From Catenulispora acidiphila DSM 44928 (GTDB lineage: Bacteria; Actinomycetota; Actinomycetes; Streptomycetales; Catenulisporaceae), in NCBI RefSeq assembly GCF_000024025.1, contig NC_013131.1:4154001-4218000 (forward strand): a stretch of 64,000 nt of DNA, given 5' to 3'. Of the stretch, positions 53,191 to 62,987 are shown piece after piece. The notes beneath the pieces are model-generated. The model had not been told where the DNA came from. It saw only the letters and a program-made list of their open reading frames with translations, and did not search any database. The position numbers and the translations under genes were made by a program. Position 1 is the first letter of the stretch; each line of letters begins with the position of its first letter.

Positions 53191-56100
53191 ATGCGGTCGT
53201 ACTGCCCTGTCCTGATCGGCCGTGCCGAGGAACTGCGGGTGCTCACGAGCGCGCTGTCCGCGGTGCGGGAGGGCACCGGCGGCTCGGTGTTCCTGCTCGG
53301 CGAGCCGGGCATCGGCAAGTCGCGGCTCGCCGAGGAGTGCGTCGACGCGGCGCGCGCCGCCGGCCTGCGGATCCTGCGCGGTCACTGCGGGCCGCTGGGG
53401 GCGGCCACGCCGTTCCGGCCGCTGGTGGAGGCGGTGTCCTCGCAGCTGCGCACCGGCCACGTGCCGCGCAGCCCTGGCCTGCACCCGTACCGGGCCACGC
53501 TGGGCCGGCTGTTTCCAGAGCTGCGGGTGCCGGGCACTCCCGCGCCGGCCGACCTGGTCGAAGTCTGCGAGGCGCTGCTGCGGTTGCTGGCCGCGTTCGG
53601 CGAGGAGAGCGAGGGCTCAGAGACCGGCGATGCGGGCGCCGGGACCAGCAAAGCCGACGGCGCGCTGCTGGTCCTGGAGGATCTGCACGACGCCGACCGG
53701 GAGACCCTGGCCGTCGTGGAGTACCTGGTCAACCACCTCCACGGCGTCAGGGTCCTGCTGGTCGCCACCCTGCGCTCCGAGCCCGGGGCGGCCGCCGACC
53801 TGGTGGGCCGGGTCACCCGCCGCCGAGCCGGGACCGTGCTCGAACTCGATCCGCTGGGGTCCGCCGAAGTCGCCGACATCGCGGCGCGCTGCCTGGCCGC
53901 GGCCGGGCCCGGCGGCGTCCCCGCCGCGGTGGCCGAGTACGTCGAACGCTACGGCGCGGGCAACCCGTACCTGGTCGAGGAGCTACTGAGCGACTTGCTC
54001 GACGCCGGTCTGCTGCGGGCTACCTCGCAGGGCTGGCGGACGGCGGGCAAGCCCCAGGTCACCGTGCCCCGGAGCATCGTCGAGGCACACGCGCGGCGGC
54101 TGGACCGGCTCGACTCCGGCTCCCGGGACCTGCTGCGGACCGCGGCGCTGCTGGGCCACCGGTTCAGCCTGCCGGCCCTGCAGACCGTTACCGGCCTGGC
54201 CGATCCGGACCTGTTCGGGCGGGTGCACGTCGCGATCGACGCCGGGTTCGTGCTGCCGGACTCCGCGGCTCCGGACTGGTACTCCTTCCGGCACGCGCTG
54301 ACCGCCGAGGCGGTCCGGGCCACCCTGCTGCCCGGCGAGCAGGCGGCACTGGCCCGGCGGGCGGTGGGCGCGCTGGAGGCGGCCGACCCGGCGCTCCCCG
54401 ACGAGCGCTGCCACCTGGCCGCGGCCCTGAGCCGGATCGCCGGCAACCCGCGCGCCGCCGCCCGGTACTACGCCGAGGCCGGCCGCCGGGCCCTGGCCGA
54501 CGGCGCCACCGAGACCGCCGTGGCGCTGCTGGAGCACGCCCACGACAACGTGCCGCCGGCCGAGCGCGCGGCCGTGGACGCCGCGCTGATCGAGGCCCTG
54601 ATCGAGGCCGATCACCTCGACAGGGCCCTGACACTCATGGACACCGCGGAGTACTCGGCCGGGATCGCGACCGGCCGCCGGATCGCGTTGCACAGCCAGA
54701 TCGCGTGGATCTCGGCGATGGCCGGGCGGCGGCCTGAGGCGGCGGCACAGCTGGCGACGGCTCGCAGGCTGTGGGCCGGCAGCGGGGATGCCGACGGCGA
54801 GGGCGACGGCAACGGCGACAGCGACGGCGACAGTGGCAGTGAACTGACACCGCCGCCGGAGCTGCTGCTCGCTGAGGCGTACTGCGTGTTCCTCCAAGGC
54901 GACGGCGACGCCGCCCAGCGCCGCACCGAGGCGGAACGATTCGCCCGGCTGGCCGCCGCCGAGGCCGAGCGCCGGTCCAGTCCGGTGATGGTGTGCCTGG
55001 CCTCGCAGCTGTCGGCGCTGCTGGCGCGGGAGCAGGGGTTCGACGTCGCCAACCGGATCCTGGAGCGGATCCTGGCCGTGGCCGAGGCGAACGACCTGCC
55101 GCTGTGGCGGGCTGAGGCCATGGTCTGCATCGCCGGCAACGATTTCATGAGCACCGGGTCCGGGCATCTGCTGGAGCAGGCTCGCGACATCTCGTTCCAG
55201 ACCGGCAGCGTCTCTCGCGGCTTGGTGATGGAGAACGGCTTGGCGCTGCACGCCGTCCTCGCCGCCGACCACGAACGGGCCGGAGAGATCCTGGCGCGGT
55301 GCCGGGCCGGCACCATTCAGGTCCGGGGGTTGGGGGACGAGCGGTACCCGGTCCTGGTGGCGGCCATGTCAGCGGCTCACCGCGGCCTGCGCGCCGCCAT
55401 GGATCGGGAACTGGCGGTGTTCGCAGAGCACGACGACCCCTCGCCGCTGGTGCCGCTGAAACTGGGGCTGTGCCGGGCGTTCTGCGCGCTGCTGGAGGAG
55501 GACCGCAGTCTGGCGCTGGCCGAATTGGACGCCTTGGACACCTGGCTGGACGCCAATCCGAGCCCGTTCTATCTGGCCGGCCGGCATGGATTACGGCCGC
55601 TGCTGATGACGCTGGAAGGACGCTGGACCCGAGACCGTTACGAGCAAGCCGCCTCCGGGCCGGGCGCGCGGCTGCGCTGGAACGCGCAGTTCCTGCATCT
55701 GGCTGACGCGGTGTTGCTGGGTCGGGAGGGGCGCGCCGAGGCTGCCGCTGCGGCGGTCGATACCGCCGTGGCCGCCGCGGCTCCGTTTCCGATGGCCAGG
55801 GCTCTTGGTCTGCGGCTGGTCGGTGAGGCTGCGGTGGCTGACGGGTGGGGCGAACCCGATCGGTGGTTGCGCACCGCCGAGGAGTACTTCCACGCACGGG
55901 ACGTGCATCCGGTTGCCGGCCGGTGTCGGGCTCTGCTTCGGCAAGCGGGAGTGCGGGTGGCGCAGCGGCGCGACAGCTCGGAGCAGATTCCGGCGGTTCT
56001 GCGGGAGCGCGGCGTGACAGTACGCGAATATCAGGTCTTTGCTTTGCTGCCCGGGCGCCCGACGAACAAGGACATCGCGCGGTGGCTGGTCATCTCCCCG

Positions 56101-56214
56101 CGGACCGTCGAGAAGCATGTCGCCAGCCTGATCATCAAGGCTGGGCAGGCGGATCGGACCAATCTGTGCGCTTACGCGGCGGAGCTGGCACGAGGTGGCG
56201 CTCGCCAGGGCTGA
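53191..56214 (+). CDS. Large LuxR-family (LAL-type) ATPase transcriptional regulator
   Basis: A 1007-aa regulator. N-terminal AAA/STAND ATPase: Walker A GEPGIGKSR (37-45) and Walker B LLVLEDLHDADRE (about 155-167). A long helical TPR-like middle follows, then a C-terminal LuxR helix-turn-helix (about 945-1000; VTVREYQVFALLPGRPTNKDIARWL, ISPRTVEKHVASLI). Residues around 530-550 are a low-complexity acidic insert of Gly-Asp repeats. LAL proteins typically activate antibiotic and RiPP clusters, and position 23 bp after the 66-aa gene suggests it controls the lanM unit and perhaps the adjacent peptide system. The stop codon lies inside the first unit of the 11-bp repeat array. Confidence 0.9.
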   Translation: MRSYCPVLIGRAEELRVLTSALSAVREGTGGSVFLLGEPGIGKSRLAEECVDAARAAGLRILRGHCGPLGAATPFRPLVEAVSSQLRTGHVPRSPGLHPYRATLGRLFPELRVPGTPAPADLVEVCEALLRLLAAFGEESEGSETGDAGAGTSKADGALLVLEDLHDADRETLAVVEYLVNHLHGVRVLLVATLRSEPGAAADLVGRVTRRRAGTVLELDPLGSAEVADIAARCLAAAGPGGVPAAVAEYVERYGAGNPYLVEELLSDLLDAGLLRATSQGWRTAGKPQVTVPRSIVEAHARRLDRLDSGSRDLLRTAALLGHRFSLPALQTVTGLADPDLFGRVHVAIDAGFVLPDSAAPDWYSFRHALTAEAVRATLLPGEQAALARRAVGALEAADPALPDERCHLAAALSRIAGNPRAAARYYAEAGRRALADGATETAVALLEHAHDNVPPAERAAVDAALIEALIEADHLDRALTLMDTAEYSAGIATGRRIALHSQIAWISAMAGRRPEAAAQLATARRLWAGSGDADGEGDGNGDSDGDSGSELTPPPELLLAEAYCVFLQGDGDAAQRRTEAERFARLAAAEAERRSSPVMVCLASQLSALLAREQGFDVANRILERILAVAEANDLPLWRAEAMVCIAGNDFMSTGSGHLLEQARDISFQTGSVSRGLVMENGLALHAVLAADHERAGEILARCRAGTIQVRGLGDERYPVLVAAMSAAHRGLRAAMDRELAVFAEHDDPSPLVPLKLGLCRAFCALLEEDRSLALAELDALDTWLDANPSPFYLAGRHGLRPLLMTLEGRWTRDRYEQAASGPGARLRWNAQFLHLADAVLLGREGRAEAAAAAVDTAVAAAAPFPMARALGLRLVGEAAVADGWGEPDRWLRTAEEYFHARDVHPVAGRCRALLRQAGVRVAQRRDSSEQIPAVLRERGVTVREYQVFALLPGRPTNKDIARWLVISPRTVEKHVASLIIKAGQADRTNLCAYAAELARGGARQG
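54785..54840 (+). repeat. In-frame GGCGAC-like microsatellite within the LAL gene
   Basis: Imperfect hexanucleotide repeats (GGCGAC, GGCGAG, GGCAAC) encode the acidic linker DADGEGDGNGDSDGDSG. The linker separates helical segments and is likely variable in length between strains. Confidence 0.65.
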
Positions 56215-56296
56215 CTGGTCGCTGACTGGTTACCGCCCGGCCGCTGATTGGTCGCTGATTGGTCGCTGACTGAGCGCTGACTGAGCGCCGACAGCC
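56210..56296. repeat. 11-bp tandem repeat array between LAL gene and short peptide gene
   Basis: Consecutive 11-bp units start at 56210, 56221, 56232 (degenerate), 56243, 56254, 56265, 56276 and 56287 (degenerate). Unit consensus is GCTGAYTGRKC; pairs of adjacent units are identical (GCTGATTGGTC twice, GCTGACTGAGC twice). The exact helical phase resembles arrays bound by dimeric or oligomeric activators. The remainder of the 410-bp gap to 56624 shows no gene, only GAAGGAGGG at its end. Confidence 0.8.
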
Positions 56297-56624
56297 GGCT
56301 TCCCCGTACCCGCTGGCCAATGCCGGGTCAGCGGGCTGCCGCAGTGTCACGCGCCGACTCCCACATTTCCGGACACCGACATGTTCGGCTACCCAATAGT
56401 GCGCCGACCCGGCGCAATTCATGGGGGTCGACCCCCCGCACCGCGGCGGCAATGTGGGTACGCGCTACCGATTCCGCGCGGCCGGCATCCCAGGAGACTG
56501 ACGAAGGCGGCCGGGGGGCGGTCGACGGTCCGGCGCCGGACCGCAGGCCACCGACGGATCCGCTCATGTGCCGGCCGATCGTTCGGTGCATGTCATCCCA
56601 GACAACCGTGGAAGGAGGGTCGCG

Positions 56625-56714
56625 ATGAAGACCATCGCCATCCGCAAGCCGGGCTCCGTTCGCCTGACCAGCGCCGCGCTGTGCCCGTACACCTGCGTTT
56701 GCTCGGCGGCCTAG
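56625..56714 (+). CDS. Ultra-short Cys-rich RiPP precursor candidate
   Basis: A 29-codon gene with a strong ribosome-binding site (GAAGGAGGG at 56610-56618, 6 nt before ATG). The N-terminal part is short and basic (two Lys, two Arg, one Lys-Pro-Gly turn). The C-terminal part, LTSAALCPYTCVCSAA, has three Cys, two Thr and two Ser in 16 residues. Architecture and size fit a ribosomally made, modified peptide. A hairpin followed by a pyrimidine tract lies just downstream, then a gene encoding an RRE-like domain plus membrane metalloprotease, so leader recognition and cleavage by that neighbour are plausible. It contains the Ser/Thr and Cys a LanM could use, and LanM is 3.7 kb upstream. Function is inferred from context only. 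Confidence 0.72.
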   Translation: MKTIAIRKPGSVRLTSAALCPYTCVCSAA

Positions 56715-56733
56715 TCAGCTGCTGAACCAGACG

Positions 56734-56763
56734 GTCGGCGGCTGGATCCGTTCGGTCGCCGAC
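56734..56763 (+). terminator. Hairpin plus T-rich tract after the short peptide gene (attenuator)
   Basis: A 7-bp perfect stem, GTCGGCG with CGCCGAC, with a 16-nt loop, starts 20 bp after the peptide stop. A pyrimidine-rich run with several T-tracts (56764-56800) follows. It would let the peptide mRNA be made in excess over the downstream processing genes. Confidence 0.6.
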
Positions 56764-56824
56764 TGTCCTCAAGCCTTTCTCCCTTTTCTCCTCTTTCTGT
56801 CCCGCAGCCGATCCGGAGGCGATA

Positions 56825-58072
56825 GTGACCGAGATTCAGCTCCCCGATCAGGCCGCGGACACCCCCCGGCCGCTCGATCTGAGCCGCCCAGTCGTCCTGC
56901 ACACGCTGACCTTCCTCGAGGAGGGCGAGGACGTGACGGTCGGCCGGCAGGACATCAACTCCTTCTGTGTGCTGCCCGCCGACGGCGCGGCGCTGCTGAA
57001 GGAGCTCGGTGCGGGGCGCACGCCCGAGGAGGTGGCCAGCTGGTACGCGCAGACGTACGACCAGGAAGTCAACATGCAGGACTTCCTGGAGGCCATGGAG
57101 GAGCTCGGGTTCCTCGCCGCCGATGCCGCCGAGGTGCGGCAGGTGGCGCCGGTCCGGTGGCAGCGGCTGGGACGGGCGGTGTTCTCCCCGCCGGCGATGG
57201 CCGGCTACTGCGCGCTGATCGCGGCCGCCGCCTTCGAGATGGCCCGGGACCACCGGCTGCTGCCGCAGTACCACAACCTGTTCTTCTCGCCGTACGTCAT
57301 GGTCATCTCGTTGACCATCTACCTTCTGCAGGTCCCGCTGGTGGCGCTGCACGAGGGCTTCCACGCCCTGGCCGGCCGCCGGCTGGGCCTGAACACCTCG
57401 TTCGGGTTCGGCCGCCGGCTGTGGTTCATCGTGGTGGAGACCTCGATGGACGGGCTGGTGACGGTGCCGCGGCGCAAGCGCTACTGGCCGATCCTGTGCG
57501 GCATGTTCGCCGACCTGCTGTCCATCGCCGTGCTGACCCTGATCGGAGCCGCCGCGCGGCGGCCGGACGGATCCGAGCCGCTGGCCGCGGCGATCTGCCT
57601 GACCCTGGCGTTCGCCACCCTTATCAGGTTCCTGTGGCAGTTCTACTTCTACCTGCGGACCGACATGTACTTCGTGGCGGTGACGGTGCTGGGCTGCGTG
57701 GACCTGCACGAGGCGGCGCGCCGCATCAACAGCAACCGGATGTGGCGGCTGCTGCGCCGCACCGACAAGCTGGCCGACGAGGAGGAGCTGCACCCCACCG
57801 ACCGCCGGGTCGGGCGCTGGTACTCCTGGCTGCTGATTCTGGGCTACGGCTTCTCGCTGGGCACCGCGCTGGCGTTCGGTCTGCCGGCCGCGCTCAAGGT
57901 GGTGCAGCTGATGTGGGACCACGTCGCGCACTCCACCGGCGCCGGCGGCGTCCTCGACACCGTGGTCTTCGTCCTGGTGAACCTGGCTCAGGGCGCGTTC
58001 CTCGGTTTCCTCTTCCTGCGCGAGCGCCGCCGGCGCCGCACCGCCGTGAAACTCCAGCACGTCATCGCCTGA
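56825..58072 (+). CDS. Membrane HExxH (M50-like) metalloprotease with N-terminal PqqD/RRE-like domain
   Basis: A 415-aa protein. GTG start with GGAGG 5 nt upstream. Residues about 20-100 resemble a PqqD-type RiPP recognition element (VVLHTLTFLEEGEDVTVGR, DINSFCVLPADGAALLKEL, TPEEVASWY, FLEAMEELGFL). The remainder has about six membrane spans. HEGFH (176-180) sits at the end of a hydrophobic helix and RTDMYFV supplies a likely third zinc ligand (Asp280), as in putative peptide zinc metalloproteases of RiPP clusters. The tail is Arg-rich. Lies 110 bp after the short peptide gene and 24 bp before the TPR gene. Likely binds the peptide leader and cleaves or exports it (inference). Confidence 0.82.
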   Translation: MTEIQLPDQAADTPRPLDLSRPVVLHTLTFLEEGEDVTVGRQDINSFCVLPADGAALLKELGAGRTPEEVASWYAQTYDQEVNMQDFLEAMEELGFLAADAAEVRQVAPVRWQRLGRAVFSPPAMAGYCALIAAAAFEMARDHRLLPQYHNLFFSPYVMVISLTIYLLQVPLVALHEGFHALAGRRLGLNTSFGFGRRLWFIVVETSMDGLVTVPRRKRYWPILCGMFADLLSIAVLTLIGAAARRPDGSEPLAAAICLTLAFATLIRFLWQFYFYLRTDMYFVAVTVLGCVDLHEAARRINSNRMWRLLRRTDKLADEEELHPTDRRVGRWYSWLLILGYGFSLGTALAFGLPAALKVVQLMWDHVAHSTGAGGVLDTVVFVLVNLAQGAFLGFLFLRERRRRRTAVKLQHVIA

Positions 58073-58096
58073 TCCGCCCCGTCTCGGAGGAAACCC

Positions 58097-60220
58097 ATGA
58101 ACGCGACACCACACCTCTGGCTGTGCGGCGGCCTGCGCCGCGACCGGGAGCGGCGGCTCGACGAGCAGAAGCCGGCTCCGATGCTCGGGCCGGTCCTGGA
58201 CGCGCACCGCAGGCTTCGCGGCCCTTACACGGCCGCCGGCACCCTACTGCGAGCCATCGTGCCCGACGCGCTGCGCGAGCAGCCGGACCTGGTGGCCCGG
58301 CAGGACCTGGAGATCCTGGCCATGGCCCAGGAGCTGCGCGGCATCGTGCCGGCCACCCGCGAGACGCTGACCTCGCTGGCCGCCCCGGAGGAGCGCACCC
58401 GCTACTACTCCAAGCTTCGGACCACCCGGATCTCGCACGGGACCGCGGAGTTCCTGCGCGACTACGCCGCGACGCTGGGCCGTCCGGACTCCGGTCCGCA
58501 GACCCTGGTCGTGGAGAACGCCGAGCACGCCGACCCGACCGACGCCGAGTTCCTGGCGATCCTGCTGCGCCGGATCGACCCGGCGGTGCTGCGCGTGGTG
58601 GTCTGCTCCGGCGACGGGGAGTTGCCGCCCGGGCCGCTGCACGACGCGCTGGAGCAGTACGCGACGCGGGTCGATGTCGCCGCTGGCGCGCCGACGGCTG
58701 CGGGGCTGGACCTGGCTGCTGACCCGCACGAACTGGCCGCGGCGTACGTCCGTGGCGACTGCACCTCGGACGAGCCGCTGCTGCTGGCGGCGTATCAGGA
58801 CATGGACCCACACGAGCGCCGCCGGCTGCACGACGACCGCGCGGCCGAGCTGGAGTCCCGCGGCGAGCCGTCGCTGGGCTACGGCGCCATCCCCTTCCAC
58901 CGCGAGCACGGCGCGGACCCGGAGGGCGCGGGGGTGCAGGCGTTGCAGAAGGCGATCGACGATCTCAGCCTGCTGGGGTACTACCACGCCACCATCGAGC
59001 TGGCGATCCGGCTGCGGCAGTACGTCGGCTGGGAGGGCGGGCGGCGGCGCTACTTCGCCACCACCTCGCGGCTGTCGACGGCGTACGCGGTGCTCGAGGA
59101 GCCGGACAAGTGCGAGGAGCTGTACGACGAGGCGCGGCGCAACAGCACCGACCCCGAGGTCCACATGGGCGCGGCGTACGCGACCGCGATGCTCTACACC
59201 CGGCATTACGAGAAGAGCAAGATCGACCACGACCGCGGCCGGGCCCTGGTCAACCAGGCCATCGCCATCGCCTCACTGCTCCCGGACCCCAAGTACCGGG
59301 CCATCCACTCGGTGTTCATGAACAACGGCCTGGCGCTGGTCGAGATGCACCAGGGCAGCCCGGAAGAGGCACTGCGGCTGGTCTCCGACTGCATCGCGCA
59401 GCTGGACCGCGAGATGGAGCCGGGTGAGTACCGCCTGCACCGCTCGGTACTGCACCACAACCGCGCGAACGTCTATCGCGCCCTCGGCCGGTTCGAGGAG
59501 GCCGCCGCGGAGTTCAGCACGGTCATCGGGCTCGACCCGAACTATCCGGAGTACTACTTCGACCGCGGCAACCTCTACCGGCTGATGGACCGCGAGGACG
59601 AGGCCTACGCCGACTACGAGACCGCCATCCGCCTGTCCCCGCCGTTCCACGAGGCCTTCTACAACCGCGGCGACATCCGAGCCGCCCGCGGCGACGTCGA
59701 CGGGGCGCTGGCCGACTTCGACTACGTCCTCGACATCGACCCGGAGTTCGTGGACGCCCGCGTCAACCGCGCCGCCCTGCTCCTGGAACTCGGCGAGGAC
59801 GCCGCCGCCGAGCAGGACGCCCGAGCCGGCCTGGCCGTCGACCCCGACAACGCCCACCTGCACACCGCCCTCGGCCAGATCAACGCCCTGCGAGGCGACA
59901 CCGAGCAGTCCTTGGCCGCCTTCAGCCGCGCCCTCGACACCGACCCCGAGCACGTCCCAGCCCTGGCCGGCCGCGCCGTCGTCCGCTTCGACGCCGCCGA
60001 CCACACCGCAGCGCGCGCCGACCTCGACGAGGCCATCCGCCTCCAACCAGAGGACCCAGCCCTGCTGTTCAACCGAGCGATGGTCTTCAAGGCCCTGCAC
60101 CACTGGCCCGACGCCATCGCGGACCTCCTCGCAGCGGCGCACCTGGCCCCCGGCGACGAGGACGTGGACCAGGCACTACAGGAGTGCCGCGACCTGGCGA
60201 TGGCCTCGGCCTACCAGTAA
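58097..60220 (+). CDS. TPR-repeat protein with degenerate ATPase-like N-terminus, partner of the peptide/protease unit
   Basis: A 707-aa soluble protein. ATG with GGAGG upstream, 24 bp after the protease stop, so co-transcribed. The N-terminal 250 residues recall the helical and Walker-B-like part of LAL/STAND proteins (TLVVENAEHADPTDAEFLAIL) but no Walker A is visible. From about 430 to 700 there are tandem TPR units (ALGRFEEAAAEFSTVIGLDP, YADYETAIRLSP, GALADFDYVLDIDP, SLAAFSRALDTDP, ARADLDEAIRLQP). Likely a scaffold or peptide-binding partner; no enzymatic motif is evident. This gene and the two before it form a compact unit that I cannot match to a described RiPP class. Confidence 0.8.
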   Translation: MNATPHLWLCGGLRRDRERRLDEQKPAPMLGPVLDAHRRLRGPYTAAGTLLRAIVPDALREQPDLVARQDLEILAMAQELRGIVPATRETLTSLAAPEERTRYYSKLRTTRISHGTAEFLRDYAATLGRPDSGPQTLVVENAEHADPTDAEFLAILLRRIDPAVLRVVVCSGDGELPPGPLHDALEQYATRVDVAAGAPTAAGLDLAADPHELAAAYVRGDCTSDEPLLLAAYQDMDPHERRRLHDDRAAELESRGEPSLGYGAIPFHREHGADPEGAGVQALQKAIDDLSLLGYYHATIELAIRLRQYVGWEGGRRRYFATTSRLSTAYAVLEEPDKCEELYDEARRNSTDPEVHMGAAYATAMLYTRHYEKSKIDHDRGRALVNQAIAIASLLPDPKYRAIHSVFMNNGLALVEMHQGSPEEALRLVSDCIAQLDREMEPGEYRLHRSVLHHNRANVYRALGRFEEAAAEFSTVIGLDPNYPEYYFDRGNLYRLMDREDEAYADYETAIRLSPPFHEAFYNRGDIRAARGDVDGALADFDYVLDIDPEFVDARVNRAALLLELGEDAAAEQDARAGLAVDPDNAHLHTALGQINALRGDTEQSLAAFSRALDTDPEHVPALAGRAVVRFDAADHTAARADLDEAIRLQPEDPALLFNRAMVFKALHHWPDAIADLLAAAHLAPGDEDVDQALQECRDLAMASAYQ

Positions 60221-60309
60221 CACCCGAGGGCCGAGGCACACAGCCTGCCGCCATCACGACCCGGCCGCAGTTAGCCCGCACCTAGCGCGGCCGTCGGGGG
60301 GCGAGGGGA

Positions 60310-60425
60310 CGGCCCGGAACCGCCCCGTCGGCAGCCCCGGATCGGCAACGAGCGGAACACAGAACGGTTCGACGCGAACCGCTTCCACTCACCGATCCGG
60401 GCAGCCGACGGGCGGTCCCGGGCCG
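60310..60425. repeat. Long imperfect inverted repeat (about 35-bp arms) with inner hairpin
   Basis: Left arm 60310-60345 pairs with right arm 60392-60425 with few mismatches or indels; within it CCGTCGGC and CCGGATCGG match GCCGACGG and CCGATCCGG. The 46-bp interior has its own perfect hairpin CGGTTCG-ACG-CGAACCG (60365-60381). It lies between convergent genes, so could act as a terminator. The size and nested structure also suit a mobile palindromic (REP/MITE-like) unit or a structured RNA. The rest of the 385-bp gap 60221-60605 holds only the microsatellite below. Confidence 0.75.
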
Positions 60426-60474
60426 ATTCGCCGTGCGGTGAGGGGCGATCCCGGACCGCCGGATCTGCTGTGGC

Positions 60475-60498
60475 TGCCACTGCCACTGCCACTGCCAC
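60475..60498. repeat. Hexanucleotide microsatellite (TGCCAC, four copies)
   Basis: Four exact TGCCAC units in the gap downstream of the TetR gene, non-coding as far as I can see. Confidence 0.8.
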
Positions 60499-60605
60499 GC
60501 GAACCTTGTGCCCCGATGGCGCCGACCTATCGCCGCAGCCGCCCACGCACGGATCCAGTAGCGCTCTCCATCTGTGTTCGGTGGACGTCGTTGCCTCGGT
60601 CGATT

Positions 60606-61238
60606 TCAAGCGTTACTTGCTTCGGCTACCTCTGTCGCCTGGAAAGCCTGGATCGCGAACATGGCGAAGCGGCGGGAGGCCTTGGCGTTCGCGGCGGGGG
60701 AGTTCGCGTGGATGCCGTTGTGGGCCATGAGCATGAGGATGACGTCGTCGATGACGAAGTCGGGGCGCAGGCGTCCGGCGGCTTTGGCGCGTTCGGCGAG
60801 TTCTGCCATTGCTGAGATGGCGTATTCGGTTTCGGCGGCGAGATCGATTGCTCGCGGGTAGGTCGAGGTGAACCTTGCTGCGAAGCCGCGGTTCTGGGCG
60901 TGCACCTCGCAGAGGTTCTCGAAGGCGTGGCGGAAGCCGTCCCAGGGGTCCGGCTCGGCGAGGCCTTGGTCGACGATGGCGCGGCAGGCGCGCATCTGGT
61001 CGGCGAAGGCTTCGGTGGCGAGGATCTCCTTGGTCGCGAAGTGGCGGTAGAGGGTGGCGGGACCGACGTCGGCGCGGCGGGCGATCTCGCGCATCGGGAC
61101 GTCCAGGCCTTCGTCGGCGAACACCTCGCGGGCGGCTTCGAGGATGCGGTCGCGGTTGTCCGAGGCGTCGGAGCGCAGCGCATGGGCGGAGTCGGGGGAG
61201 TGGGCGGAGTGTGCGGAGTGGGACAGACGGTCGGTCAT
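60606..61238 (-). CDS. TetR-family regulator divergent from oxidoreductase genes
   Basis: A 210-aa repressor. HTH: NRDRILEAAREVFADEGLDVPMREIARRADVGPATLYRHF. The ATG at 61238 is chosen; a longer frame to 61460 would run antisense through the neighbouring gene's start. The N-terminus carries a short Ser/His/Ala repeat (SHSAHSAHSPDSAHAL). The perfect palindrome at 61256-61275, immediately upstream, is its likely operator and would control both directions. Confidence 0.9.
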   Translation of the reverse strand: MTDRLSHSAHSAHSPDSAHALRSDASDNRDRILEAAREVFADEGLDVPMREIARRADVGPATLYRHFATKEILATEAFADQMRACRAIVDQGLAEPDPWDGFRHAFENLCEVHAQNRGFAARFTSTYPRAIDLAAETEYAISAMAELAERAKAAGRLRPDFVIDDVILMLMAHNGIHANSPAANAKASRRFAMFAIQAFQATEVAEASNA

Positions 61239-61255
61239 GTCTCTCACTTTAGCTA

Positions 61256-61275
61256 AACGGACGCCCCCGTCCGTT
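61256..61275. promoter_or_regulatory. Palindromic TetR operator (AACGGACG-CCCC-CGTCCGTT)
   Basis: A perfect 20-bp element with 8-bp arms in the 82-bp divergent gap. Flanking CTA and TAG extend the symmetry imperfectly. Confidence 0.8.
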
Positions 61276-61320
61276 AGCGTCGGCCGAAGTGCGGGAAACC
61301 CGCTCTGCGATGAGGAGACA

Positions 61321-62316
61321 ATGGTGAAAGCGGTAGCGATCCAGTCTTTCGGAGATCCCGAAGGGCTGCGCGTCATCGAGGTGCCCGTCCCGGTTCCGGG
61401 CAGCGGGCAGGTGCTCGTCACGCCGACGGCGATCGGGGTGGGCGGAGTGGACGTCGTCATCAGGCGCGGCGGCCTGAAGGCTTACGGCTTCGGCGAAGGC
61501 CACATCCCCGGCAGCGAGGTGGCGGGGACCGTGACGGCGGTCGGCGAGGGCGTCGACGCCTCGTGGGTCGGCCGTCGGGTGTGGGCGTACACCGGTTTCG
61601 GCGGCGGCTACGCCGAGCAGGTGGCCGTCGGGGTCGAGGACGTCGTGCCGCTGCCCGCGGATCTGTCCGACACCGACGCGGTGACGCTGGGGAACTCCGG
61701 AGTGGTGGCTCACTTCAGCCTGGCCCACGCCCACTTCACGCCCGGTGAGTCGGTGCTGGTGCGCGGTGCCGCCGGGAGTATCGGAGTCACGGCCGTCCAG
61801 CTCGCGGCACGCGGCGGCGCCGGCGCCGTGGCGGTCACGACCGCCTCGCCCGAACGCCGCGAACGCCTCCGCGCCTTGGGCGCCAGCCACGTCCTCGACC
61901 GCCGCGGCGAGGCAGCGGCACGCGACACAGCGGCACGCGAGACAGGCAGCGACGCCCCCGCAGGCTTCGACGTCATCATCGACGTCGTAGCAGGCGCGGA
62001 CCTCCCGTCATTCGTGCGCAAACTCAACCCGAACGGCCGCATGGTGATCGTGGGAGTGGTCGGCGGGCAGCCGCCGTCGGACTTCGGCACGACGATGATG
62101 GACACCTTTCAGAAGTCGCCGTCCATCGCCGCCTTCAGCGCCGCAAGCATCCCCGCATCCGAACGCCATGCCGTACGCGCCGAGCAGTTCGCCGAGGCTG
62201 CGCGCGGCGAACTGCGGACCGTCGTCCACGAGGTGTTGCCGCTGGAAAAGGCTGTGCTCGCCCACCAGAAGATGGAGGCGGGCGAGGTCTTCGGCCGCAT
62301 CGTGTTGACCCCCTAG
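61321..62316 (+). CDS. Zinc-type alcohol dehydrogenase superfamily protein, NADPH:quinone oxidoreductase-like
   Basis: A 331-aa medium-chain reductase. N-terminal GroES-like domain (VKAVAIQSFGDPEGLRVIEVPVPVPGSGQVL, HIPGSEVAGTVTAVGEGV) and a Rossmann domain with VRGAAGSIGVTAVQLAARGGA. The structural-zinc Cys cluster is absent, as in the quinone-reductase branch. GAGGAG precedes ATG 61321 closely; GTG at 61324 is an alternative. Divergent from TetR and 32 bp upstream of the next reductase, so probably a TetR-controlled detoxification pair. Confidence 0.88.
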   Translation: MVKAVAIQSFGDPEGLRVIEVPVPVPGSGQVLVTPTAIGVGGVDVVIRRGGLKAYGFGEGHIPGSEVAGTVTAVGEGVDASWVGRRVWAYTGFGGGYAEQVAVGVEDVVPLPADLSDTDAVTLGNSGVVAHFSLAHAHFTPGESVLVRGAAGSIGVTAVQLAARGGAGAVAVTTASPERRERLRALGASHVLDRRGEAAARDTAARETGSDAPAGFDVIIDVVAGADLPSFVRKLNPNGRMVIVGVVGGQPPSDFGTTMMDTFQKSPSIAAFSAASIPASERHAVRAEQFAEAARGELRTVVHEVLPLEKAVLAHQKMEAGEVFGRIVLTP

Positions 62317-62348
62317 CGACAACTGCACACCAACGAAGAGAGCACCTT

Positions 62349-62987
62349 ATGAGCACCATCAGCACTAGCAGCACCATCAGCATCATCGGCGCCGGGAACA
62401 TGGCCCGCACCCTCGGCACGCTGGCCGTGGCAGGCGGCAACACCGTCGAGATCATCGGCCGCGATCAGTCCAAGGCCGCCGCCGTGGCCAAGGCCCTCGG
62501 CAGCGGTGCCACCACCGGTGAGTGGGGCGCCGTACCGGCCGGGGACATCGTCATCGTGGCCTTGTTGGCCGACGCTGTCGCTCCGACCGTCGCCCAGTAC
62601 GGCGACGCCCTCGCGGGCAAGGTGATCGTCGACATCAGCAACCCCTTCAATGCCGCGGCCGACGGGCTCGCCTACCGCGGGGAGACCTCGATCGCGCAGG
62701 AAGCCGCGAAGGTCGCCCCGGCCGGCGCCAGCGTGGTGAAGGCGTTCAACACCATCTTCGGCCATGTCCTGGACAAGGGAGGACGGCCCGACGTCTTCTT
62801 CGCCGGCGACGATGCGCAGGCCAAGGCGGACGTGGAGGTGTTCATCAAGAGTCTCGGGCTGCGCCCGCTGGACGTCGGCGGCCTGCACATGGCGCACTGG
62901 TTGGAGGGAGCCGGCTTGGTCGTGATGGGCCTCGCCCGCAACGGCGTCGGGCACTGGGACCTCGGCCTCGGCGTCGCCGAATTCTAG
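62349..62987 (+). CDS. F420/NADP-dependent oxidoreductase-like Rossmann protein
   Basis: A 212-aa protein of the NADPH:F420 reductase (FNO)-like family. TISIIGAGNMARTLGTLAVAGG gives the dinucleotide-binding loop. VEIIGRDQSKAAAVA, VVALLADAV, VIVDISNPFN, VVKAFNTIFG and DVFFAGDDAQAKADV are also typical. Length is near that of known FNO enzymes. The N-terminus has a Ser/Thr run. Same strand as the quinone oxidoreductase; substrate unknown. Confidence 0.88.
   Translation: MSTISTSSTISIIGAGNMARTLGTLAVAGGNTVEIIGRDQSKAAAVAKALGSGATTGEWGAVPAGDIVIVALLADAVAPTVAQYGDALAGKVIVDISNPFNAAADGLAYRGETSIAQEAAKVAPAGASVVKAFNTIFGHVLDKGGRPDVFFAGDDAQAKADVEVFIKSLGLRPLDVGGLHMAHWLEGAGLVVMGLARNGVGHWDLGLGVAEF

Follow-up and report, generated by a model that had tools for sequence, protein, structure and literature searches.

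A conserved trio of a short leader peptide, a predicted RRE-protease fusion and a TPR protein in Catenulispora acidiphila, a probable undescribed RiPP-type maturation system

In the window analysed here, a stretch of 64,000 nucleotides from the genome of Catenulispora acidiphila DSM 44928, three genes follow one another on the same strand (Table 1). The first is a tiny gene for a peptide, MKTIAIRKPGSVRLTSAALCPYTCVCSAA, which divides into a basic leader, MKTIAIRKPGSVRLT, and a short tail, SAALCPYTCVCSAA; the second encodes a membrane protein predicted to fuse an RRE (RiPP recognition element, RiPP standing for ribosomally synthesised and post-translationally modified peptide) to a site-2-type metalloprotease; and the third encodes a tetratricopeptide repeat (TPR) protein. 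An earlier note on this DNA had pointed out these genes, and a hairpin between the first two, and re-reading the sequence bore out both the positions and the features. The trio occurs in many soil bacteria and spans ten bacterial families of Actinomycetota and Chloroflexota, with its genes, their order and the pattern of leader and tail all conserved, which is not chance. It probably represents an undescribed RiPP-type maturation system in which the leader would be bound by the RRE and the tail freed by intramembrane cleavage with help from the TPR protein, Tyr/Cys chemistry taking place on that tail.

Table 1. Features at and beside the peptide locus (positions in the window)
Feature	Position	Strand	Basis
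LAL-type LuxR regulator gene (AAA_16 and GerE), just upstream; possible cluster regulator	53191..56214	+	Domain scan
Purine-rich ribosome-binding sequence of the peptide gene, GGAAGGAGGG	56610..56619	+	Seen in the sequence
Precursor-like peptide gene, 29 codons, ATG 56625 to stop 56714	56625..56714	+	Sequence reading and family-wide conservation
17-bp hairpin between the peptide and protease genes, then a pyrimidine-rich tract to about 56802	56730..56767	+	Spacer folding; recurs in relatives
Gene (GTG start, 415 aa) for an RRE-like domain (model residues about 21-101) and a site-2-type membrane metalloprotease, HEGFH being residues 176-180	56825..58072	+	Sequence, profile and fold
Gene (ATG start, 24 bp after the protease gene) for a TPR protein, N-terminal part like a degenerate AAA_16/STAND domain without P-loop (in relatives)	58097..60220	+	Sequence, profile and fold

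Relatives were gathered through the protease. Whole-genome searches with it gave homologues in 12 of 60 relatives and in 18 of 394 genomes of the class (the host's own genome and distant homologues included), a wider scan of the phylum gave protease matches in 6 of 296 genomes (own included), and a single-sequence search of genome contigs with the window protease found no relative. An alignment of 17 close protease homologues (A1), used as profile query, reached at least 118 relatives, the best 80 loci of which were analysed, so that counts over 80 describe the close family; these come from at most 78 assemblies, as L069 and L136 share one and L077 and L123 another. Gene counts were made over 94 loci (the window, 13 loci and these 80), leaving out L060 to L062 as distant, as well as L044, L045, L055 and L058, which lie on the same contigs as L095, L132, L100 and L129 and all have a TPR homologue. 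Peptide counts were made over 91 distinct peptides, drawn from 94 entries in which L013/L132, L022/L100 and L025/L129 are each one contig under two ids, L003, L005, L019 and L021 having been left out because their peptides are identical to ones already in the set. Outside the 91 stand six further copies in L101 and L115, all with Tyr and Cys, and a plasmid copy (L143) with neither. Distant homologues (about 20 to 133 bits) were left out of these counts.

In every one of the 80 loci, the protease gene is preceded by a gene for a short peptide whose basic leader is of one and the same kind (75 were found by a first regular expression and five by inspection, and a second pattern recovered all 80), which upholds the suspicion of the earlier note that such a peptide would accompany homologous proteases. 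The leader has the consensus MKKIxVRKxGxVRLT, and across the 91 distinct peptides it carries a mean net charge of +5, with Arg at −9 and Thr at −1 invariant; position −2 is Leu in 90 peptides and position −3 is Arg in 86. Across the 1.27 Mb that make up the 80 loci, the two strands together give 94 occurrences of the leader pattern, of which 89 fall no more than 1 kb ahead of the protease gene and the other five, further upstream, are extra tandem copies in two of the loci. As the family itself supplied the pattern, finding it upstream is in part a foregone result, which does not apply to its absence elsewhere. In its DNA form, it is unique in the 10.47 Mb host genome. Tandem copies number eight in L101 (Phytomonospora endophytica) and six in L115 (a Stackebrandtia metagenome-assembled genome), and L064 and L086 have two each. 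That a gene this small is easily missed, as had been surmised, is supported by the curated models: no Pfam or NCBIfam model is above cut-off for the window peptide or for 10 sampled relatives, the one Pfam match (E 0.29) being due to chance.

The tails are short and variable (mean length 14 residues, range 10-25), yet Tyr and Cys are each present one or more times in all 91, and neither residue ever occurs in the leaders (0/91). From composition, one would expect about 33 of the 91 tails to contain Tyr, 11 to contain Cys and 4.1 to contain both (the sequences are not independent). The 80 loci together hold 94 copies with 82 distinct tails, and these likewise all have both residues. Counted from the Thr, the first Tyr falls on position seven in 62 of 85 distinct tails. 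Of the 85, 45 have exactly one Tyr and one Cys, with the Cys offset from the Tyr by −3 (18 tails), +4 (11) or +5 (9) and, in the remaining 7, scattered from +2 to +16, that is, with no single Tyr-Cys spacing. The [LA]CxYxCxC core that the earlier note had put forward as a family feature does not generalise, as it is found in 1 of the 91 peptides, that of the window (whose closest relative, L063, has LCPY in common with it); what is general is the pair of residues at varying spacing. Which of the two comes first follows the protease tree: the type with Cys before Tyr accounts for 2 changes (24.8 in label shuffles), the type with Tyr before Cys for 12 (25.0), the mixed type for 10 (17.2) and all three jointly for 12 (37.2), a fit to which near-copies add.

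The spacer between the peptide and protease genes also has a recurring feature. An uninterrupted stem of at least 9 bp is present in 70 of 72 spacers, versus 14.5% of simple block shuffles, and the folding z is below −2 in 60 of the 72 (the shuffles kept 2-base blocks rather than exact dinucleotide counts). These 72 were measured out of 81 loci, the others having a spacer outside 30-400 bp or a peptide missed by the first regular expression. The whole spacer of the window has a z of −1.87 versus dinucleotide shuffles, 7 of 200 of which fold equally well. Rfam gives nothing at the gathering threshold, and a sigma-70 scan found no promoter and one terminator-like site, on the minus strand, which is the number expected. 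The hairpin is a probable transcript attenuation or stabilisation element; a usual purpose of a hairpin in precursor operons would be to raise the transcript level of the peptide above that of the enzymes, which may apply here. Its recurrence at this very place would also suit a cis-acting leader open reading frame (ORF), that is, a peptide whose translation controls the hairpin, and hence expression of the protease, and which has no further role. Such an explanation is extremely unlikely, considering that the leader is conserved at the amino-acid level over two phyla, that there are multiple paralogues with diversified tails which all keep Tyr and Cys, that the type of tail follows the protease tree and that the protein encoded downstream carries a predicted RRE.

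The fusion of an RRE to a site-2-type protease is well supported as a predicted fold, and at that level both halves of what had been proposed for this protein hold. The HExxH motif is kept in 80 of 80 homologues and, in the window protein, it sits on a model helix (residues 158-186), inside a hydrophobic segment (152-178) and just after it. In the AlphaFold2 model (pLDDT 92.1), residues 29-93 form three strands and then three helices. With E-values of 0.1 or less, 11 of 81 homologues match Pfam PqqD (best 7.7e-4) and 10 of 81 match the NCBIfam lasso PqqD model (best 0.0018), while a profile of the 81 homologues compared with the sequences of the PDB finds, at E up to 1, only TbiB1 (0.23) and TfuB1 (0.38), which are both lasso RREs. 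Structural alignment with VIA-align agrees, since the RRE region matches TbiB1 with Z 9.9 (78 residues, 2.3 Å), TfuB1 with 9.8 and PqqD with 8.2. The fold alone would not decide whether this is an RRE, a question that is answered fairly well once the sequence profile is added to it. As for the membrane part, it aligns with RseP (Z 8.1) and with the site-2 protease (S2P) of Methanocaldococcus (Z 7.3), and of the 81 homologues, 22 match the M50 family (PF02163) with E-values no higher than 0.1 (best 4.3e-5).

The third gene is as constant as the other two: all 94 close loci (94/94) have a TPR homologue downstream of the protease and in its orientation, in support of the TPR partner that the earlier note had listed. 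The TPR superhelix runs from about residue 270 on and makes up the C-terminal two thirds of the protein. In the alignment of these proteins (A3, 66 of those from the 80 loci plus that of the window), 47 of 67 members match AAA_16 with an E-value of 0.1 or below (1.5e-5 for the best one), the window protein not being among them; fold comparison of the latter barely covers its N-terminal part. The P-loop, GxxxxGK[ST], is absent from the first 150 residues of the frames taken for 80 TPR proteins (0/80). Because what is left looks like a remnant STAND domain without P-loop, the protein appears, on its sequence, more likely to be a scaffold or a sensor than an ATPase.

Around the trio, gene content varies. 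The regulator gene just upstream in the window was considered as a core component and rejected, because it has matches in 7 of the 94 loci only (window included); an imperfect tandem repeat with an 11-bp unit, GCTGACTGGTC, lies at and after the end of this gene (56210-56292). Downstream, tblastn detects a directly following flavin reductase gene in 29 of the 94 loci (28 if the count is limited to the 86 loci that extend 4.3 kb or more beyond the protease start), to which ORF clustering adds three (L088, L115 and L139), PF01613 being confirmed for those of L139 and L104; an old-yellow-enzyme homologue directly follows in 6 of 94. Lentzea and Amycolatopsis provide examples of loci with a flavin reductase. 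In L052, the TPR gene is directly followed by a TIGR03975 RiPP radical SAM methylase (619 bits, cut-off 282), a 90% identical homologue of which likewise comes after the trio in L050, which makes 2 of 94 loci, and L119 has a weak match to this methylase (94 bits) 1.9 kb upstream. The peptides of L050 and L052 (G009 and G007), where this TIGR03975-type radical SAM C-methyltransferase is encoded after the TPR gene, have the tail SVAAxMYGDPxSCPIxIA. The window itself gave no match to radical SAM, YcaO, MNIO, P450 or flavin reductase. The claim that no radical SAM, YcaO or MNIO gene is adjacent is correct: in the host genome, the nearest radical SAM gene (PF04055) is about 0.43 Mb off (none within 0.4 Mb of the locus), the nearest YcaO gene (PF02624) about 65 kb from it and the nearest P450 gene about 0.26 Mb, and MNIO/DUF692 (PF05114) has no match anywhere, these genome-wide searches not extending to graspetide ligases or dehydrogenases. 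The wider claim drawn from it, that known classes do not fit, is right for the window, but two relatives do have a RiPP methylase right after the trio.

TPR proteins and neighbouring regulators bring us to the main rival explanation, in which the RRE-protease frees an unmodified or lightly modified signal, a pheromone, which is sensed by the TPR superhelix or by a neighbouring SARP/AfsR/LAL regulator. TPR folds do bind short peptides (the Rap-peptide complex 8rte matches with Z 19.6, a value equalled by many TPR folds), the STAND remnant in the TPR proteins of relatives, that of the window excepted, is typical of regulators, 37 of 94 loci have SARP/AfsR genes no more than 6 kb away and 13 of 94 have a divergent one at 1 kb or less, and the window has no modifying gene nearby of the types searched. 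However, regulators are not a constant partner and these SARP/AfsR counts stand without a background rate, a Pfam scan of the window TPR protein found no DNA-binding domain and no helix-turn-helix (HTH) family, and the Tyr and Cys present in 91 of 91 tails, together with the methylase and flavin enzymes of some loci, point to chemistry. A pheromone is thus the less likely explanation by some way, and it does not exclude RiPP-type maturation, as a modified peptide can be a signal.

The preferred scheme of RiPP-type maturation, in which we infer leader binding, cleavage and its site, topology, the role of the TPR protein, modification and biological activity, would run as follows. (i) The small gene would give a precursor made up of a basic N-terminal leader, with R-L-T at its end, and of a short tail, variable but with Tyr and Cys, (ii) the RRE domain of the membrane protease would take up the leader as an added β strand and (iii) place the peptide in the intramembrane HExxH site, (iv) a cut near or just after the conserved R-L-T would release the tail, possibly to the outside, and (v) the TPR protein, apparently of STAND type with its ATP site lost, might act as a peptide-handling scaffold or as a regulator of the cleavage step. 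(vi) The mature tail, as its near-obligatory Tyr and Cys suggest, might be used chemically, for example through a Tyr-Cys link or metal binding, and (vii) flavin enzymes or the radical SAM methylase might add lineage-specific tailoring where they are encoded. A Tyr-Cys link is conjecture, and no single spacing of the two residues holds. It is doubtful that the family stands for a new RiPP class with a joined Tyr-Cys pair (a thioether or similar, or a metal/redox centre) in operons without a known modifying enzyme, where the bond would form spontaneously or be guided by the RRE-protease together with the STAND-TPR protein that lacks a P-loop; no description was found of a protein of that type taking part in peptide maturation.

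Several observations weigh against RiPP-type maturation. Concerning the protease, (i) the window protein has no match of its own to Pfam PqqD or to the lasso PqqD model, (ii) two methyltransferases also match its RRE region (Z 7.8 and 7.1), (iii) a Z near 8 for the protease part can reflect a common arrangement, (iv) Foldseek E-values are at least 0.1 for RREs and 0.18 for S2P (probability 0.91, root-mean-square deviation 14) and (v) the window protein scores 12.9 bits with Pfam M50, versus a curated cut-off of 27.2. Concerning the partners, the TPR reading frame is short in three loci (L086, 581 aa; L107, 305 aa; L131, 272 aa), the divergent plasmid copy of Streptomyces sp. NBC_01450 (L143) has a leader-like peptide whose tail lacks Tyr and Cys, so the pair is not absolute, and codon changes in close pairs comprise 176 synonymous and 130 non-synonymous ones (43 non-independent pairs), a ratio that would fit a coding sequence with a fast-changing tail. 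The complete counts, 80/80 and 94/94, apply to the close family only, its loci being the best-scoring homologues. Finally, no modifying enzyme of the types searched is near the trio in the window, and in about two thirds of loci no flavin reductase gene directly follows, so that the peptide may go without modification there.

At the edge of the family, most distant homologues have no such peptide upstream, L060 to L062, the three checked, have no match for a TPR partner, and L148, a mid-range homologue, has no leader-like ORF in the stretch examined. To judge by sequence, these appear to be a set of their own, related to the family, some of them with ThiF genes alongside. Such a distant homologue beside a ThiF-family gene is seen in L144 (4820-7197, a Streptomyces plasmid, with a BTAD regulator near), in L060 and, by neighbour similarity, in L062, which suggests another unnamed RRE-protease pathway on plasmid and chromosomes. 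In L011 and L035, where the RRE-protease homologues are distant too, the short upstream peptide is of another kind, MKKLxVRxLExxKTSAxxxC, containing Cys and no Tyr, and perhaps represents a sister precursor family (the L035 peptide is also found in L152). In L143 (1-10945), transposase genes flank the plasmid trio on both sides, and the operon may move.

The interest of these genes is that they form a conserved three-gene family whose precursor is recognised by none of the curated models tested. The near-obligatory Tyr and Cys in an otherwise variable tail make a concrete prediction on chemistry, testable by mass spectrometry, the TPR partner, constant as it is, would add a new sort of component to peptide maturation and the leader motif offers a simple handle for mining.

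How does the trio compare with known systems? On the TPR side, it resembles STAND/LAL regulators by its TPR superhelix and, in relatives, by its AAA_16 remnant, but it differs from STAND NTPases by the missing P-loop. RRNPP peptide receptors also have a TPR superhelix; their TPRs are preceded by an N-terminal HTH or phosphatase-type domain. In the window TPR protein, the Pfam scan found no DNA-binding domain, and relatives have the AAA_16 remnant instead.

On the protease side, the lasso RREs TbiB1 and TfuB1 are the nearest solved relatives of the RRE domain by both profile and fold, the difference being that the RRE is fused here to a membrane metalloprotease. Lasso leaders, too, have an important Thr near their end (PMC10368454). 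No lasso (asparagine-synthetase-like) cyclase gene was seen in the seven scanned genes of the window (53191 to 62987), the search having been restricted to these seven rather than genome-wide. The pearlin M50 proteases TglG/TmoG free a product from a scaffold peptide (PMC10885120); the architecture here is one of leader and tail, the tail being some 14 residues long. Epipeptides (YydF/EpeX with YydH/EpeP; PMC10885120) have an M50 membrane protease beside a tiny precursor gene. Here, there is no radical SAM gene near, the RRE is fused to the protease, the precursor is another one and a TPR protein is present.

Daptides come closest. The fusion of an RRE to a site-2 protease, to which the earlier note had drawn attention, is already known from them, as PMC10036551 describes MpaP/DapP as an intramembrane site-2 protease with an N-terminally fused RRE. 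The same source gives daptide precursors (MpaA) as short and sometimes several per locus, another likeness, with an invariant C-terminal Thr and the leader motif ELExMEAP. One could therefore envisage a daptide-like or epipeptide-like pathway with its modifying enzymes encoded elsewhere in the genome, in favour of which the YydH/LiaK epipeptide protease model also has a weak match in 3 of 81 homologues (best 4.8e-4). This is very unlikely. The daptide protease model NF041824 matches neither the window locus (E up to 1e-3) nor, among the families they reach, the 81 homologues (E up to 0.1), the leader here is a basic RKxGxVRLT, the daptide motif occurs in 0 of 91 peptides and the C-terminal Thr in 1 of 91, and the nearest radical SAM gene is as remote as stated above. 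None of the seven scanned window genes is a daptide DUF-RRE, oxidative decarboxylase, aminotransferase or methyltransferase gene, for which no specific search was made. Elsewhere in the host genome (4140890-4141990 and 4761443-4762453, outside the window), the daptide protease model has sub-cutoff matches near YcaO gene groups, apparently separate protease loci. Daptide, epipeptide, YcaO, MNIO and P450 pathways were all rejected for the window, with models unmatched, daptide features nearly absent and modifying genes distant or none.

Literature searches found no description of the leader or of the gene trio; the supplementary lists of RRE mining papers, which were outside the search, may hold the family unnamed. 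Within the literature searched, the RRE-protease fusion thus has a precedent in daptides, and no description was found of the leader, of the pattern of the tail or of a TPR partner such as the one that accompanies the protease in all 94 close loci.

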